From assembly GCA_025966315.1 (NCBI GenBank), contig JAOPUZ010000023.1, positions 124,001 to 188,000 on the forward strand: a stretch of 64,000 nucleotides of DNA. Reading direction: 5' to 3'. The position numbers and the translations under genes were made by a program. The DNA is from Frankiales bacterium (GTDB lineage: Bacteria > Actinomycetota > Actinomycetes > Mycobacteriales > Jatrophihabitantaceae). The notes beneath the pieces are model-generated. The model had not been told where the DNA came from. It was given only the letters and a program-made list of their open reading frames with translations, and searched no databases. Positions 35,374-45,691 of this stretch are shown here, in pieces; positions within the stretch are counted from its first letter, which is position 1; every line of letters starts with the position of its first letter.

Positions 35374-36893
35374 CGGGCACCTCCGAGCGTGGGGATCCGT
35401 CCGAGAATCGGGCCGTTGGCCGCGTTGTACGCCGCTTCGAAGGCAGCGCCGACCCGGTAGCAACGATCGTCGGCCATCGTCGGGGCCATGATCTGCAGGC
35501 CGACCGGCAACGCGGGCCCGGTTTCGTCGGACAAACCGCACGGTACCGAGATGGCCGGCGTGCCGGCCAGCGATGCCGGCAACGTGCACAGATCGTTGAC
35601 GTACATCGCCATCGGGTCGGCCACTCGCTCACCGATCCCGAAGGCCACGAACGGAGACGTCGGCGAGATCAGCACATCAGTCGTGGCGAATGCCGCGGCA
35701 AAATCTCGCGAGATCAGCGTGCGAACCTTCTGCGCCTGCCCGTAGTACGCGTCGTAGTAGCCCGAGGACAGCGCGTACGTGCCGATCATGATTCGACGCT
35801 TGACCTCGGCGCCGAACCCGGCCTCGCGGGTGAGCGACATGACTTCCTCGAGCGAGTGACCGCCGTCGTCGCCGACGCGAAGTCCGTACCGGACAGAATC
35901 GAAGCGGGCCAGGTTGGACGAGCATTCGCTCGGTGCGATCAGGTAATACGCCGCGAGGGCATAGTCGAAGTTCGGGCAACTCACCTCGACGATGTCTGCC
36001 CCCAGACCGCGCAACGTCTCGACCGCGGCGGCAAAAGAGTCGAGGACGCCCTGCTGGTAGCCGCCGTTGAGCCCGGTCAGCTCAGTCACGATTCCGACCC
36101 GGACACCGGCCAGCTCACCGAGGGCACCGTCGCGGGCCGCGGCGACGACATCAGGACCGGGATTGGGGATCGACGTCGAATCACACGGATCGTGCCCGGC
36201 GATCACCTGGTGCAGCAGGGCGGTGTCGAGCACGGTGCGGCCGAACGGGCCGGCCTGATCGAGTGATGATGAGAATGCGATCAGCCCGTAGCGGCTGACC
36301 GCGCCGTAAGTGGGCTTGTGGCCGACGATGCCGGTGACGGCCGCCGGCTGACGAATCGAGCCACCGGTGTCGGTGCCGATGGACAAGGGCGCCTCGAAAG
36401 CGGCCACCGCGGCGGACGAGCCACCCGACGAGCCACCCGGGACGCGGCCGAGATCCCACGGATTGTGGGTCGGGAAGAAGGCCGAATTCTCGGTCGAGGA
36501 CCCCATCGCGAACTCGTCCATGTTGGTCTTGCCCAACATCACGATGCCGGCCTGCTTGATGCGGGTGGTCACGGTGGCGTCGTAAGGCGGCACCCATCCC
36601 TGCAGGATTTTCGAGCCTGCGGTGGTCTCGAGCCCTTTGGTGACAACCACGTCTTTCATGGCCAGCGGCACACCGGCCAGCGGACCGAGGTGCTCACCGG
36701 CACTTCGGCGGGCATCGACGGCGGCCGCGGCGGCCAAGGCGCCGACGGCATCGACCTGCAGGAACGCCTTGACATCGCCGTCCACTTCAGTGATCCGGTC
36801 CAGGTGCGCCTGCGCGACCTCGACCGCGCTCACTGAACCGTCCCGCACTGCCGCGGCCGTATCGGCGGCGGTCAACTCGAACAGCGCGGCCAT
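35370..36893 (-). CDS. gatA: Asp-tRNA(Asn)/Glu-tRNA(Gln) amidotransferase subunit A
   Basis: Amidase-signature subunit that releases ammonia from glutamine. In the 507-residue protein the Ser-Ser-Lys triad is visible: lysine in [12 protein letters not shown], serines in [14 protein letters not shown] and [12 protein letters not shown]. The family ending [17 protein letters not shown] is present. The ATG at 36893 shares one base with the gatC TAA stop, so all three subunits are translationally coupled. Confidence 0.97.
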
Positions 36894-37204
36894 TATTCTT
36901 CCTCACCCAGGATCTGCGGTACCCGAAAGCGGTCTTCTTCAACCGACGGCGCCCCGGCCAGCACATCGTCGCGGAGGAGCGATGGCACCAGCACGTCCGG
37001 ACGGAAGACATTCTCCAGCGGGACGGCGTGAGAGGTCGGCGGGATATCGGCCGCCGCGACCTCGCCGACTCGGGCGACCGCGCCCAGAATCACTTCGAGC
37101 TGTTCGGCGAAGACGTTGAGTTCGTCGTCGGTGACGGCCAGCCGGGCCAGTTTCGCCAGATGGGCAACTTCGTCTCGAGTCAGTGCGCTGCGGGTGTCGG
37201 ACAC
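36893..37204 (-). CDS. gatC: Asp-tRNA(Asn)/Glu-tRNA(Gln) amidotransferase subunit C
   Basis: A 103-residue subunit that clamps GatA and GatB together. It has the family opening [21 protein letters not shown], the helix [19 protein letters not shown], and the extended tail ending [16 protein letters not shown]. It is first in the gatCAB operon and overlaps gatA by one base. With gltX and tRNA-Gln in the same window it supports the indirect Gln-tRNA route. Confidence 0.96.
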
Positions 37205-37292
37205 ACCGAGTGAGTCTAGGACCTGACGGCGACCCCGGGCAGCCCGGTGCCCGCTGCGTTGCGGTTCGCTGTCCGATTCGCGGGCCAGCTGT

Positions 37293-37328
37293 CGAGTTGG
37301 TTCCCGAGTAGGTTCGCGAGTTGGTTCG
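37293..37328. repeat. Three tandem 12-bp repeats before gatC
   Basis: CGAGTTGGTTCC, CGAGTAGGTTCG and CGAGTTGGTTCG occur head to tail in the 128-bp gap between the cyclase gene end and the gatC start. They lie in the upstream region of gatC and could be binding sites or slippage products. Confidence 0.7.
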
Positions 37329-37332
37329 CCGA

Positions 37333-38877
37333 CTATGCCGTCAGGCGCATCGCTGCGCTCACTTCATTTTCGTCCGCCGGGCCGGACGACTCGATCTCGC
37401 AGCGATTACGCCCGGCCGCCTTGGCCCGGTACAGCGCACGGTCGGCCGCGCCGAGCAGCGTCATCGATGTCGCGGATCCATCCTGGGAGATCGCTACCCC
37501 GACGCTGCCACTGATCGGTACCGGCGCCTGGGCATTGACCAGGCTGGCGCGAAGTCGTTCGGCCGCGGCGCTCGCGTCGGACCGGGTTACCCCGGCGAGC
37601 ACCACGCCGAATTCCTCGCCTCCGTAACGAGCCACCACGTCCGTCGAGCGGGTCGCGGACTGTAGCGCTGACGCGGCGACCCGCAGCACCTCGTCGCCGA
37701 CCAGGTGGCCGTGCTCGTCGTTCACTCGTTTGAAGTGGTCGAGATCGACGAGCGCCACCGCAATCGAGCCGCCCGTCCGTTGAGCGCGAGCCAATTCGCG
37801 CGCCAGATGCTCATCGAACATCCGCCGGTTCAACACCCCGGTGAGGCCGTCGGTGCTGGCCGCGTTGCGCAGTTGGCGGACGAGCATCGCCCGGGCCAGC
37901 GCCAGCCCCGACTGCGACGCCGCCTGGCTGGCGGTGGACAGCATCCAGCGTTGCAGACCGATCCGGGCCGTGCGCCGCGGAACTTCCAGCACCAGCCAGC
38001 CACCGATGGTGCGATCCACCGGGATCGGCAGGACCACGGCAGTGCCCAGGTTCGGAAGCACCCGATCCAGATGCGGGTTTCGGGCCGCCACGACCCGGCG
38101 CAGCAACACCGGCGCACCGCTGTCGTTGGCCTCGGACAGCGCCTGGTCTGCAGCCAAATCCGTCACCGCGTCGGCCAGGATCACGATTCCTCGCGTCATC
38201 GACAGTTCGGTCACCATCGTGCGGGTCAGCAAGCCGGCGATCTCGTCGGCATTCTGCAGTAGTTGCAATGCCACGGCCAGTTCATGCAGCACCTCGGCCG
38301 AGAACCGCCGCTTCTTCAATTCCCGTTCGTTGGTGGCCGCAAACGTCGAGGTCGTCAGCGCGGTGAGCCATATCGCGGCAAGGAATACGACGTAGTGCCG
38401 GTAAGGAAATTCAGTCGTTGCCGTGACCGCCTGGAACACGCCGTCGCGTACCATTTCGATCGCGCACATCACGGCAATCGAGTGCCATAACGCCACCTTG
38501 ATGCCAGACCTGAACGACATCAGCAGACAGACGCCCATCACGTGCACGACGATGAGGTACGTGACCATGCCGGTTGGGCCACCGAGGCTCACCAGCAGAA
38601 TCGCGCCGCACAGACCGTCGGCCAGTAATCCGGCGGAGGCAATCGCAATCGCGAATTGCCGGCCCACTCGCGGCGACAGCGGCGTAAGCAGGCACAGCAC
38701 CAGGTAGCCGACGGCCATCGGCGGCAGGGGTAATCCAACGTCGGCACGCTCACTGGGCAGGGCCTGCCACAATACGATGGCGGCGGCGAGCAGGCCGAGC
38801 CGCAACGCGGTGGCCCACCGGATGCGATCAGCCAGCGGGACCAGGCCACGCCGGGACGGGTCTTGCTTTTTACTCAT
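37333..38877 (-). CDS. Membrane-bound diguanylate cyclase with GAF-like domain
   Basis: A 514-residue protein that should make c-di-GMP from two GTP. Residues about 22-185 hold five or six membrane helices, 190-335 resemble a GAF sensor, and 345-500 form a GGDEF domain: STDGLTGVLNRRMFDEHL, VDLDHFKRVNDEHGHLVGDE and RYGGEEFGVVL with GGEEF at 419-423. An RxxD inhibitory site (RSTD, 410-413) stands five residues before it, so product inhibition is expected. The start ATG at 38877 overlaps by four bases the stop of the upstream membrane-anchored TasA-like gene, so the two are made together. The input signal is unknown. Confidence 0.93.
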   Translation of the reverse strand: MSKKQDPSRRGLVPLADRIRWATALRLGLLAAAIVLWQALPSERADVGLPLPPMAVGYLVLCLLTPLSPRVGRQFAIAIASAGLLADGLCGAILLVSLGGPTGMVTYLIVVHVMGVCLLMSFRSGIKVALWHSIAVMCAIEMVRDGVFQAVTATTEFPYRHYVVFLAAIWLTALTTSTFAATNERELKKRRFSAEVLHELAVALQLLQNADEIAGLLTRTMVTELSMTRGIVILADAVTDLAADQALSEANDSGAPVLLRRVVAARNPHLDRVLPNLGTAVVLPIPVDRTIGGWLVLEVPRRTARIGLQRWMLSTASQAASQSGLALARAMLVRQLRNAASTDGLTGVLNRRMFDEHLARELARAQRTGGSIAVALVDLDHFKRVNDEHGHLVGDEVLRVAASALQSATRSTDVVARYGGEEFGVVLAGVTRSDASAAAERLRASLVNAQAPVPISGSVGVAISQDGSATSMTLLGAADRALYRAKAAGRNRCEIESSGPADENEVSAAMRLTA

Positions 38878-40040
38878 GGCAGTTCCTTACGGGATTCGGA
38901 TACACGGTTTTCGGAATGAGTGGATTCGGATTGACGGGTTTTCGCCCGCAAGTGCGGGAATTGAATTCTTGGGCTGCGGAACAACGGCGCTCGTGACAAC
39001 TTGGGATCGGAATGATCCATCCGGTTCTGGATCAACAGGAATACGACGACCAGCACGAGCAGTGCGACGGGGAATGCGGCCCGGGTGGCCAGTCCGGCCG
39101 CGACCGCCTGTAGCGCAACCCAGTGGTCCGCAGCCGTGACCTGAGTGCTCGCCGTCGACGGCGTCGGGCTCGAGGGGTCGTCGACGGCGGCCGCCGCGCC
39201 GGTGTCACGCGGGTGGGCTCGCGCCGTCGGAGCAGGTTGGCCGGTCGGCGTAGCGGTTGGCACGGCCGGACTCGAGCGCGCCGAACCGGTACCCACGGGC
39301 GGCCCTGAGGTCGAACCGGCGGAGGTCGAGCCGGCGGAGGTCGAGCTGGGCCACGCGGTGGCGGGCCTGGAGGTGGGCGACGCGGTGACGGTAATCGAGG
39401 GATCAGCAGGAGTTCCGGACGGCGCGATCGAGGCGAAAACCGCGTCCCACTCGAAATCGGCGCTCGCCGAGGTGCCCTGGGCGGTATCGACGTCGGCCAC
39501 CTGCACGTCGAAACGAAACGTTGCCGACGCGACCGAGGACGAACCGGCACGTTGCCAGCCGGTATCCAGGGGGTCCTCGCGGGCGCCGAGCCCGGCTAGG
39601 GTGCCGTCGTAGAGCGGTTCGCCCTGGAAGTCCGCACACGAGTTCTGCTCGCCACTACCGACGGAAACTCGCACCATCAACCAAGTTGACAGCTCGCCGG
39701 TGACGTCATCGGCGCGTAGCACGACTCGCTGTCCGGCCCCGGTTCCGGGAATGCTCACGATCGTGCAGCGACTCACTTCTCGTCCCGGCTGCAAGTCGTG
39801 ATCATCGAACAAGGCGGGTTCGCTCGGCGCCGACGGATCCGCCTCGGACGGCGACGCGGCCGAGTTGGCGGCAAGCCGCATCGAATAGATGCGGCCACCG
39901 GCATCGTGACTCGGTGATTGCGCGCCTCGCCCGAGCCCAATTCCGGCAACGGCCAGCAGCGCGGTCAGCAGGAATGCGGGCAACGCGTAAAGGTAGGCAG
40001 AAGCGTTGCCACGCGTGGGGTTTTTCGCCGTACCGGTCAC
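38874..40040 (-). CDS. Membrane-anchored TasA/camelysin-like protein
   Basis: A 388-residue exported protein. A membrane segment or signal (18-36) leads to a domain (50-202) sharing two blocks with the protein of 40273-41007: DLQPGREVSRCTIV here against ALKPGDSGSSCITV there, and FRFDVQVADVDTAQG with ADFEW against FRFNYALATDAPNTAQG with KLTWE. These blocks are typical of TasA/camelysin-type matrix proteins. A 100-residue Ser/Thr/Pro/Gly stalk, a C-terminal membrane helix (321-338) and a 50-residue cytosolic tail follow. It starts with GTG and is coupled to the cyclase gene. Proposed role: tethered fibre subunit or anchor. No closer relative is recognised. Confidence 0.65.
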   Translation of the reverse strand: MTGTAKNPTRGNASAYLYALPAFLLTALLAVAGIGLGRGAQSPSHDAGGRIYSMRLAANSAASPSEADPSAPSEPALFDDHDLQPGREVSRCTIVSIPGTGAGQRVVLRADDVTGELSTWLMVRVSVGSGEQNSCADFQGEPLYDGTLAGLGAREDPLDTGWQRAGSSSVASATFRFDVQVADVDTAQGTSASADFEWDAVFASIAPSGTPADPSITVTASPTSRPATAWPSSTSAGSTSAGSTSGPPVGTGSARSSPAVPTATPTGQPAPTARAHPRDTGAAAAVDDPSSPTPSTASTQVTAADHWVALQAVAAGLATRAAFPVALLVLVVVFLLIQNRMDHSDPKLSRAPLFRSPRIQFPHLRAKTRQSESTHSENRVSESRKELP

Positions 40041-40272
40041 CCGTATTTGATCGGTTTAGTGCGGCATCAATTGAGTGATGCGGGGCCTTGCGACCGTACT
40101 TCTTGGGCCGATGCGCACAAGGTTAGGCCCGCAGACCCAAACATGTTGACTTTGCTTGGGCTGGTCCGACACCGCCCGATTGGTTGGGCACAGAACGTTT
40201 TCGCAACCTATCAAATCCATTGGTATGACCCAACCAGGTCATCCCGTCAATCCAGAGAAAGCAGGCCACACC
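40041..40272. promoter_or_regulatory. Divergent promoter region of the TasA-like genes
   Basis: A 232-bp spacer between the two TasA-like genes. It holds a 6-bp inverted repeat GCATCA-ATTGAG-TGATGC (40064-40081), and ATCAAAT occurs close upstream of both starts (40051-40045 on the minus strand; 40210-40216 on the plus strand), so both genes may share a promoter type. I saw no c-di-GMP riboswitch consensus. The region is less GC-rich than its surroundings. Confidence 0.5.
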
Positions 40273-41007
40273 ATGGTCGGACAACATAGAGGCCGCGACG
40301 AAGCCGGTGCGGAGGCGCGCAGTACCGATTCGTCAGCACCACGCCCCCGCGCCAGCCGTCGAACCGGCCGTCTACTGTTTGCCGCTGGCGTGCCGTTAGG
40401 TCTGCTCGGTGCTGGCGCCTTGGTATGGCAAGCCTCCTACGCAGCATTCAGTTCCACCACCGTCAACCCGGGAAACACCTTCACCGCCGGCAGCGTCGTA
40501 CTCACGGACAACGACAGCGGTACCGCGGTGTTCACCACGGCAGCTCTGAAGCCGGGTGACAGCGGATCGTCCTGCATCACCGTCACCTACAGCGGATCGC
40601 TCACGCCGTCGGCACCGGTTCAGCTGTACGTGGCGTCGGGCGATGCCACCGATACACCCGGATCTGGTGGCGGCGCGCTGTCGACCGCGTTGGACTTCAG
40701 TGTCGAAACGGCCACCGGATCCGGAATCTTCGGTTCCGGGGCGCCGTGTACGGCGCTGAGCGGCACCGCAATCTTCGGTAGCGCAGCGAATACCACCATT
40801 ACCGCAGGAGCCATGTTGTCGGATTTCGTGGCCAAGAACGCCTACAGCAGCGGCGGCACCACCAGCGTGTCCTCCGCCTGGACGCCGACCGGCGGTTCGA
40901 GCACCACCAAGGTGTTCCGATTCAACTACGCCTTGGCCACCGATGCGCCGAATACCGCTCAGGGAGCGGTTGCCACCGTGAAATTGACATGGGAATCACG
41001 CAGCTGA
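40273..41007 (+). CDS. Secreted TasA/camelysin-like protein with SipW-type signal
   Basis: With ATG at 40273 (AGG seven bases upstream) the protein has 244 residues; ATG 40225 is an alternative giving 260. A basic N-terminus and a hydrophobic segment (33-51) are followed by WQASYAAFSSTTVNPGNTF, the pattern of SipW-dependent signal peptides in which cleavage precedes AFSS-like sequence. The mature part has LKPGDSGSSCITVTYSGSL and ends FRFNYALATDAPNTAQG followed by KLTWESRS, as in TasA/camelysin (M73-like) proteins. There is no C-terminal anchor. Its 3' end overlaps the peptidase gene by 19 bases. It is probably a matrix or fibre subunit. Confidence 0.75.
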   Translation: MVGQHRGRDEAGAEARSTDSSAPRPRASRRTGRLLFAAGVPLGLLGAGALVWQASYAAFSSTTVNPGNTFTAGSVVLTDNDSGTAVFTTAALKPGDSGSSCITVTYSGSLTPSAPVQLYVASGDATDTPGSGGGALSTALDFSVETATGSGIFGSGAPCTALSGTAIFGSAANTTITAGAMLSDFVAKNAYSSGGTTSVSSAWTPTGGSSTTKVFRFNYALATDAPNTAQGAVATVKLTWESRS

Positions 41008-41516
41008 CCGGTGCCGCCCGCCAACTCGTGCAGTCGATCGTCATCGGCCTGTGCGCGGTGGTAGGCAGCCTGGTGCTCATCTCGGTAGTGCCGGCGCTGT
41101 TCGGTTGGCGATCAGTGAACGTGCTCAGCGGTTCGATGGCACCCAGGATTCACCCGGGCGACGTCATCGCGGTTGCGCACATCGTGCCCGCTGAGCTGCA
41201 CCCCGGTCAGGTCGTCCTGGTCCGCGAACGGGCCGATGGTGACCGCATGGTCATGCACCGCTTCGTGCGCTTCACCCCGACCGGCGACCTGATCACCAAG
41301 GGCGACGCGAACCGGGAGGTTGACTCCTCCCCGGTACCGCCGCAGGATTTGCTCGGCCTGCCGCGGCTCCGGGTTCCATGGATTGGATTGCCCGCGATCT
41401 GGTGGCGCGCTCACCAAACGCTGCCGTTGGCCCTGCTGGCCAGCGGTGCCGGGATAGCGGGCGCGATCACGCTCGGCGCGGACGGGGTGACGGCGCGCCA
41501 TCGCCGCGCCATCTGA
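40989..41516 (+). CDS. sipW: SipW-type signal peptidase I
   Basis: A 175-residue membrane peptidase of the ER-type S26B branch. N-terminal helix 15-37, nucleophile serine S49 in SGSMAPRIHPGDV, catalytic histidine H90 in DRMVMHRFVRF (histidine replaces the lysine of ordinary bacterial LepB), and TKGDANREVD at 104-113; a second helix is near 141-160. SipW in Bacillus processes TasA and TapA for biofilm fibres. The gene overlaps the 3' end of the TasA-like gene, which is very likely its substrate, and the tethered protein may be another. Confidence 0.92.
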   Translation: MGITQLTGAARQLVQSIVIGLCAVVGSLVLISVVPALFGWRSVNVLSGSMAPRIHPGDVIAVAHIVPAELHPGQVVLVRERADGDRMVMHRFVRFTPTGDLITKGDANREVDSSPVPPQDLLGLPRLRVPWIGLPAIWWRAHQTLPLALLASGAGIAGAITLGADGVTARHRRAI

Positions 41517-41626
41517 GTATGCGACCGCACGGCGGGACCCAGGGCAGGCGGTATCAGATCAGGATCAGGTTCCGGAGGAGACCTCCGCGTTACAGCAGAG
41601 ACACATGGACTTGCGACAATCGCCGC

Positions 41627-45691
<4,065 letters not shown>

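Follow-up and report, generated by a model that had tools for sequence, protein, structure and literature searches.

The stretch of Frankiales bacterium DNA analysed here (64,000 nucleotides, nt; assembly GCA_025966315.1, contig JAOPUZ010000023.1, positions 124,001 to 188,000, hereafter the window) contains, at positions 37333-41516, four intact genes encoding a membrane diguanylate cyclase, two exported TasA-like proteins, one anchored and one free, and a SipW-type signal peptidase. When these genes are followed across other genomes, the constant core is, by sequence comparison, a gene pair in which a surface protein ending in a short conserved tail is followed by an enzyme that combines a PilS-like membrane part with a GAF-like part. 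The pairing is real and widespread and, as far as the literature was searched, undescribed; that search, made mostly without subscription papers and preprints and on partly available texts, returned no description of the tail-protein/enzyme pairing, which counts as weak evidence. Sequence together with structure prediction establishes the genes and their predicted folds, the pairing and its gene overlap, the conservation of the tail and the exchange of surface and output domains around it. On balance we favour the reading that the four genes form a fibre-sensing module, in which the anchored protein would dock a TasA fibre and report its state to the synthesis of cyclic di-GMP (c-di-GMP).

A tail-bearing surface protein paired with a membrane enzyme

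The open reading frame (ORF) calls agree with the preliminary description of this locus, which had placed the same four genes together at the same positions. On the reverse strand, the gene for the anchored TasA-like protein, here called TasB (38874..40040; 388 amino acids, aa), is followed by that for the cyclase (37333..38877; 514 aa, with a PilS-like membrane part, a GAF-like part and a GGDEF domain), and the stop of the former overlaps the start of the latter by 4 nt (38874..38877), as had been noted. Divergent from this pair, on the forward strand, lie the gene for the free TasA-like protein, here called TasA (40225..41007, with its start at 40225 or 40273), and the peptidase gene (40989..41516), which overlap each other. 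An Rfam scan of positions 36800-42000 revealed no credible riboswitch, the single match scoring 13 bits where the gathering score is 40.

Searches with the membrane-GAF half of the cyclase identified this enzyme family in 20 of 345 genomes of the class. A tail search of the same sample gave 21 matches with an expectation value (E) below 1e-7, 18 of which, the window included, lie beside the enzyme; the remaining three (L094-L096) are found beside other GGDEF or EAL genes, identified by Pfam on two genes of L094 and one of L095. Ten weaker matches to the four-row tail profile (E 6e-4 to 0.01) stand outside these counts. Close reading of 24 loci (that of the window and 23 more, with L093, cut by a contig end, excluded) showed the tail gene in 21 and the exact 4-nt overlap in 19; the enzymes of L091 and L092 are without a tail gene. 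L090 and L128, whose contigs are equal in length, are probably a single record.

Within the 84,980 species genomes of a named collection, 74 enzyme loci were found, distributed over Geodermatophilus, Kineosporia, Kineococcus, Cellulomonas marina, Actinoplanes, Paractinoplanes, Pilimelia, Spirilliplanes and Motilibacter, as well as many Frankiales metagenome-assembled genomes (MAGs), Solirubrobacteraceae, Acidimicrobiaceae, Nitriliruptoraceae and Chloroflexi MAGs. Four of these loci are cut by contig ends; in 62 of the 70 that could be assessed, with starts taken from the alignment, the tail gene lies directly upstream of the enzyme, and 56 of the 62 pairs show the exact 4-nt overlap. In L104, the tail gene lies 36 nt upstream. 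As the named loci partly repeat those read closely, the two sets of counts are not additive. When 396 genomes of the phylum were searched in reverse, with the tail as query, 22 matches were obtained outside the window, including L194, which is the same DNA as one of the query rows. Ten stand beside a membrane module with GGDEF, seven beside a module without GGDEF and one beside a receiver-EAL gene, three are lone, and a weak match in G569 was left unclassified.

The complete four-gene set recurs in at least seven other named genera (Geodermatophilus, Kineosporia, Kineococcus, Pilimelia, Paractinoplanes, Actinoplanes and Spirilliplanes), and because the same four genes come together in other genera their grouping is more than chance. 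The gene set is therefore not unique to this strain, and the link of the module to a c-di-GMP synthase, first read from the window, is conserved elsewhere.

TasB was found to have the stalk and C-terminal helix that had been described for one of the two proteins, the other being free. Its parts, all on the reverse strand, are an N-terminal hydrophobic helix, a TasA-like ectodomain (39423..39905; aa 46-206), a Ser/Thr/Pro-rich stalk modelled with low confidence and without secondary structure (39135..39422; aa 207-302), a C-terminal membrane helix (39009..39074; aa 323-344) and the conserved, predicted cytoplasmic tail QNRMDHSDPKLSRAP...F (38958..39029; aa 338-361). The window protein has no Pfam or NCBIfam match. 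Across 63 proteins (62 named and that of the window) the tail is nearly invariant, with the consensus FLxxQxR[IL]DRRDPKLALAP, or FLxxQxR[IL]DRRDPKLALAPV...L.F in its extended form; within the DPKL motif, P and L are kept in 63 of 63, and D and K in 61 each, as is the preceding Q.

The window cyclase carries a full GGDEF domain (37402..37860, reverse strand; aa 340-492; PF00990, E 9e-46), in which GGEEF and, five residues ahead of it, the RxxD site (RSTD) are intact, as the preliminary description had it; by these features it would be expected to be an active diguanylate cyclase (GG[DE]EF). GG[DE][DE]F is kept in 68 of the 74 named enzymes, two of the others being cut by contig ends. In alignments, the membrane part (38323..38820, reverse strand; about aa 20-185) shows a conserved loop, FRSGIKVALWHS, and the exit motif NEREL; five membrane segments are seen by simple hydropathy and a sixth is assumed from the family. 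This part appears to be related to the PilS domain, judging from profile matches in the family: PF25323 (6TM_PilS) scores above its cut-off in the relatives L204 (30.8 bits) and L198 (28.6 bits) and matches 2 of 13 aligned members at E<=0.01. The GAF assignment likewise comes from relatives, with a match in 7 of the 13, and a Pfam scan of the window cyclase itself gave no GAF match. Hydropathy and an assumed N-in six-helix topology would place the tail, the enzyme loop FRTGLKxALWH and the exit motif NERELRRR all on the cytoplasmic side.

Several variants of the pair were also observed. The proteins of L094 (8415-9065), L095 (947-1600) and L096 (8124-8774) are two-helix proteins of 216-217 aa with the variant tail RDVKLSxADW, and appear to form a further branch of the tail family; their genes lie tail-to-tail with a GGDEF-EAL gene (seen by Pfam in L094), and another GGDEF gene is near in L094 and L095. 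Upstream of position 8974 in L128, a tail-like remnant recognised by eye precedes a cyclase that is intact, which suggests that the partner gene has decayed. The enzyme of L117, which reads without the GG[DE][DE]F motif, is the same DNA as L080 849-2417; the enzymes of L161, L103 and L143 read without it too, and in all four lost activity, errors in the sequence or a different role could be the explanation.

TasA-type proteins and a SipW-type peptidase

Families of free and of anchored proteins were built since neither window protein passes a Pfam cut-off; the free protein scores 19.4 bits with Peptidase_M73, below the cut-off of 22.5, and has no NCBIfam match. As matches of the single sequences miss these cut-offs, the TasA assignment is drawn from family profiles and from folds. 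Within the free family, 12 of 24 members match Peptidase_M73 at E<=0.01 (best 1.9e-11) and 8 of 24 match the TasA model of NCBIfam at E<=0.05 (best 6.3e-6). Searched against solved structures, the free-family profile places TasA at the top, weakly (5of1, E 0.011; 8aur, E 0.012), with an unrelated enzyme following at E 0.014. The free and anchored families align with each other by hhalign profile-profile comparison with a probability of 99.9% (E 6e-31), and the motifs LxPGxxxSxCxxV and FRF...TAQG are common to both window proteins, which upholds the paralogy that had been read from shared motifs; from these sequence comparisons we take the two to be paralogues.

The kinship of both proteins with TasA and camelysin, proposed at the same time, was borne out by structure prediction. 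The AlphaFold model of TasA has a mean predicted local distance difference test score (pLDDT) of 74.4 and that of TasB 68.6, the latter lowered by stalk and tail; across aa 71-200 of the TasB ectodomain the block means are at least 80. For each model the sole Protein Data Bank match by Foldseek with E<0.001 is the TasA fibre 8aur (TasA, E 1.5e-6; TasB, E 4.2e-4). With the VIA structural aligner, three TasA entries rank 1-3 for both models, at Z 8.9, 7.5 and 7.4 for TasA (best alignment 146 residues, root-mean-square deviation, rmsd, 3.6) and Z 8.3, 7.7 and 7.0 for TasB (5of2 at Z 8.3, 125 residues, rmsd 3.1), and unrelated folds start at Z 6.6 and below. The middling Z scores would be insufficient alone; because sequence profile, SipW neighbour and structural rank agree, we regard the kinship as settled, and both exported proteins are TasA/camelysin relatives by family profile and predicted fold.

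The peptidase is of the SipW type (endoplasmic reticulum-type signal peptidase I) by profile and active-site residues: it exceeds the cut-off of NCBIfam TIGR02228 (61.1 versus 51.85 bits) and has the Ser49 and His90 originally noted. It falls short of the Bacillus SipW equivalog NF046067 (50 versus 190 bits).

In B. subtilis, TasA subunits are joined through an N-terminal donor strand, residues 28-38, according to the available portion of PMC9674648. At the corresponding place, after the signal peptide, the free protein of the window has the segment AAFSSTTVNPGN (40441..40476, forward strand), for which a donor role is suggested by comparison with that account. In its loosest pattern, one of three fitted after the sequences had been inspected, the donor-strand-like motif occurs in all 24 free proteins and in none of the 24 anchored ones. 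By this feature TasB would be a TasA relative that is no TasA fibre subunit.

The locus thus resembles Bacillus TasA-TapA-SipW in the predicted TasA fold of both exported proteins, in the SipW-type peptidase and in the donor-strand-like segment of the free protein. It differs in its second protein, which is TasA-like, anchored and without a donor segment, whereas TapA donates a strand and is thought to give the first donor strand in B. subtilis (PMC10151520, in the text available). From the same text a TapA is expected to have a donor N terminus on a complete immunoglobulin (Ig) domain, and in TasB a TasA-like ectodomain with no donor-like motif was found instead. A paired cyclase and a conserved tail are not mentioned in the partly available descriptions that were compared. 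B. cereus sipW-calY1-calY2 is similar in having two camelysins, or camelysin-type proteins, and one SipW; in the accessible parts of PMC10151520, a comparison by description only, no stalk, membrane helix, DPKL tail or cyclase is mentioned.

Exchange of both ends and a proposed sensing role

Among 63 pairs, 27 anchors are TasA-like and 36 are not. Lengths among these 36 run from 96 aa to 2987 aa, with many cut by contig ends, and the one that was scanned (2368 aa) consists of bacterial Ig domains in series. Genes for TasA and SipW are found in the flanks of 24 of the 27 TasA-like anchors versus 0 of the 36 others (Fisher p 2e-14, a value that takes the loci as independent of shared descent, with many of the non-TasA-like contigs being short); the flank of L097 was counted from its copy L015. 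The TasA-like anchors lacking the full set are those of L104 (neither gene), L140 (SipW only) and L170 (TasA only). TasA-like proteins are often found where the enzyme is missing: they were detected in 21 of 197 genomes, with only 6 of those 21 among the enzyme-family genomes, which come from an overlapping, larger sample. G019, of the same family, has TasA-like proteins at L014 and L017, a SipW-type peptidase beside that of L017 and no tail match, from which it follows that the fibre part also occurs alone.

The output end varies as well. Of the seven tail neighbours without GGDEF (L204, L206, L208, L211, L212, L199 and L198), five were scanned by Pfam, and each of these proved to be a histidine kinase (HisKA_3, HATPase_c). 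In six of the seven loci the tail gene has an EAL gene within about 0.65 kb, placed divergently in L212, and in L198 one is found 5 kb away. By Pfam, these EAL neighbours carry a receiver in L204, L206 and L211 and a GAF domain in L199; those of L208 and L212 were seen by single-sequence search alone. A tail protein and a module with a histidine-kinase end, mostly near an EAL gene, would be an apparent two-component version of the system. A quick tree of 81 membrane modules implies no fewer than two changes of output and three of ectodomain type; the kinase group forms one clade, as do seven Chloroflexi proteins labelled GGDEF-EAL by their length, with Pfam confirmation in one (L118). Because ectodomain and output are both exchanged between relatives, the tail and the membrane module are the kept part.

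PilS offers a model for how these kept parts might work together, as its six transmembrane segments allow direct interaction with the pilin PilA (PMC6058289, as far as available). Because the membrane part of the enzyme appears to be PilS-related and PilS contacts pilin, the enzyme may read its surface partner through that protein's membrane helix and tail. Under the fibre-sensing reading, SipW would trim the free TasA-like protein, which would then polymerise on the cell surface, and TasB, with its stalk, membrane helix and tail and no donor strand, would serve as the cell-bound docking subunit. The membrane helix and DPKL tail of TasB would touch the PilS-like membrane part of the cyclase encoded by the next gene, and fibre attachment, occupancy or tension on TasB would alter cyclase activity and local c-di-GMP. 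We infer the physical contact, the direction of the signal, the formation of a fibre and the docking role of TasB from the conserved features above. The likeness to Pseudomonas PilS-PilR lies in the membrane half, which matches the PilS domain in some family members, and in a fibre-linked membrane protein as the proposed ligand. The differences are that the output here is GGDEF, GGDEF-EAL or a HisKA_3 kinase near an EAL gene, that the fibre protein is TasA-type and no type IV pilin, and that the ligand has a dedicated tail and a gene overlapping that of the sensor.

The preliminary description had suggested that fibre and second messenger are made together. The cyclase link stood, being conserved, but the constant partner of the enzyme proved to be the cytoplasmic tail and not the fibre module, so 'made together' understates the case, and the evidence points to sensing by a membrane receptor. 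Co-production only, in which a shared operon raises matrix fibre and c-di-GMP jointly and tail and enzyme never touch, would fit the 4-nt gene overlap, and c-di-GMP commonly promotes matrix production. We nevertheless consider it unlikely, as it leaves unexplained a short tail kept across unrelated ectodomains and beside histidine kinases; that persistence points to sensing by a membrane receptor over mere co-production.

A conserved and predicted cytoplasmic tail could also serve traffic in the other direction, with the enzyme or its product governing display, release or clustering of the surface protein, and LapD provides a precedent for such inside-out control of adhesins by c-di-GMP. This seems less probable still: the tail protein of the window has no Pfam or NCBIfam domain, no c-di-GMP receptor was recognised among the four proteins, and the histidine-kinase versions better suit an input role. 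A chiefly structural part for the membrane protein, as anchor or assembly platform of the surface protein and with its catalytic domain secondary, would agree with the close pairing, the gene overlap and the four named members without GG[DE][DE]F, but is highly improbable given that 68 of 74 keep the motif and that the output is elsewhere swapped for a histidine kinase and not simply lost.

Several results weigh against the fibre-sensing reading that we prefer. Eight of the 70 assessable named enzymes are without a tail gene (L098, L114, L120, L125, L128, L129, L132 and L143), and three of the 22 tails from the reverse search are lone. The window cyclase scores 21.3 bits with 6TM_PilS, under the cut-off of 27, and sits on a long branch in the quick tree of 81 modules. 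Four named enzymes (L103, L117, L143 and L161) read without GG[DE][DE]F, so some enzyme partners may not be active cyclases. No specific signal emerged from a mirror-tree comparison, with 0.46 for tail against membrane module and 0.45 for tail against GGDEF. The TasB model is nearer to the self-complemented TasA monomer (Z 8.3) than to the fibre form (Z 7.0), and because of this higher monomer-like score the model lends no support to an open acceptor groove in TasB. The post hoc fitting of the donor-strand patterns also counts here, and the two stricter patterns miss many free proteins, detecting 16 of 24 and 9 of 24, with 0 of 24 anchored proteins in each case.

It is an even call, in our estimate, whether the wider proposal holds that Actinomycetota and Chloroflexota share a modular outside-in family, with an exchangeable surface protein, a fixed helix and DPKL tail, a fixed membrane-GAF receptor and exchangeable c-di-GMP-linked outputs. 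Those outputs, as predicted from their domains, would be a cyclase, a cyclase-phosphodiesterase or a histidine kinase near a receiver-EAL gene. If true, a single receptor family senses fibres or giant surface proteins of very different kinds. To our knowledge, how single-membrane bacteria sense their own surface structures and turn that sensing into c-di-GMP is largely open. In surface sensing by PilY1-SadC, a fibre protein controls a membrane cyclase outside-in, through proteins that are not known to be related to those described here or to be encoded by a one-to-one gene pair sharing a tail. The present system offers a compact gene pair in named strains (Geodermatophilus, Kineosporia, Actinoplanes and Kineococcus), a short tail motif and natural swaps of both ends. 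Through it, TasA-type proteins of Actinomycetota would gain a plausible anchor on the cell, and the tail motif provides an annotation handle for surface proteins without a domain match, such as that in the window.

Probable insertion of the module, and related peptidases

The four genes lie within about 4.4 kb (37205..41617) between gatC and an ACT-domain gene. In all eight relatives checked, four of the genus and four of the family, gatC is separated from the ACT gene by 117-147 bp, and because of this close adjacency the module is most simply explained as an insertion here. A further eight genomes of the genus, not all of them complete, gave no TasA, TasB-ectodomain or tail match. The tail is present in 3 of 24 genomes of the family (the window, G017 and G022); in G017 and G022 the module is at another site with all genes on one strand. 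The proportion of G+C across the insertion, 0.62-0.69, is little different from that of the flanks. None of the four genes encodes an integrase, and the repeats listed (20 of 24 direct families) include no convincing direct or terminal inverted repeats around the insertion. The TasB ectodomain had no match at E<=0.001 in a plasmid collection, giving no sign of plasmid carriage.

Other SipW-type peptidases were encountered in the course of the searches. The genome of the window encodes a second SipW-like peptidase (L002, contig C20, 49711-50145) with 35% identity, which occupies the beginning of a 539-aa ORF and lies directly downstream of a 128-aa protein with a hydrophobic N terminus, possibly representing a separate SipW-type system. 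The SipW-type peptidases of L018 (8879-10096) and L019 (5566-6744) have an N-terminal extension of ~220 aa rich in Pro and Glu, and in L019 an additional Gly-rich protein with a hydrophobic N terminus is encoded between the peptidase and TasB.

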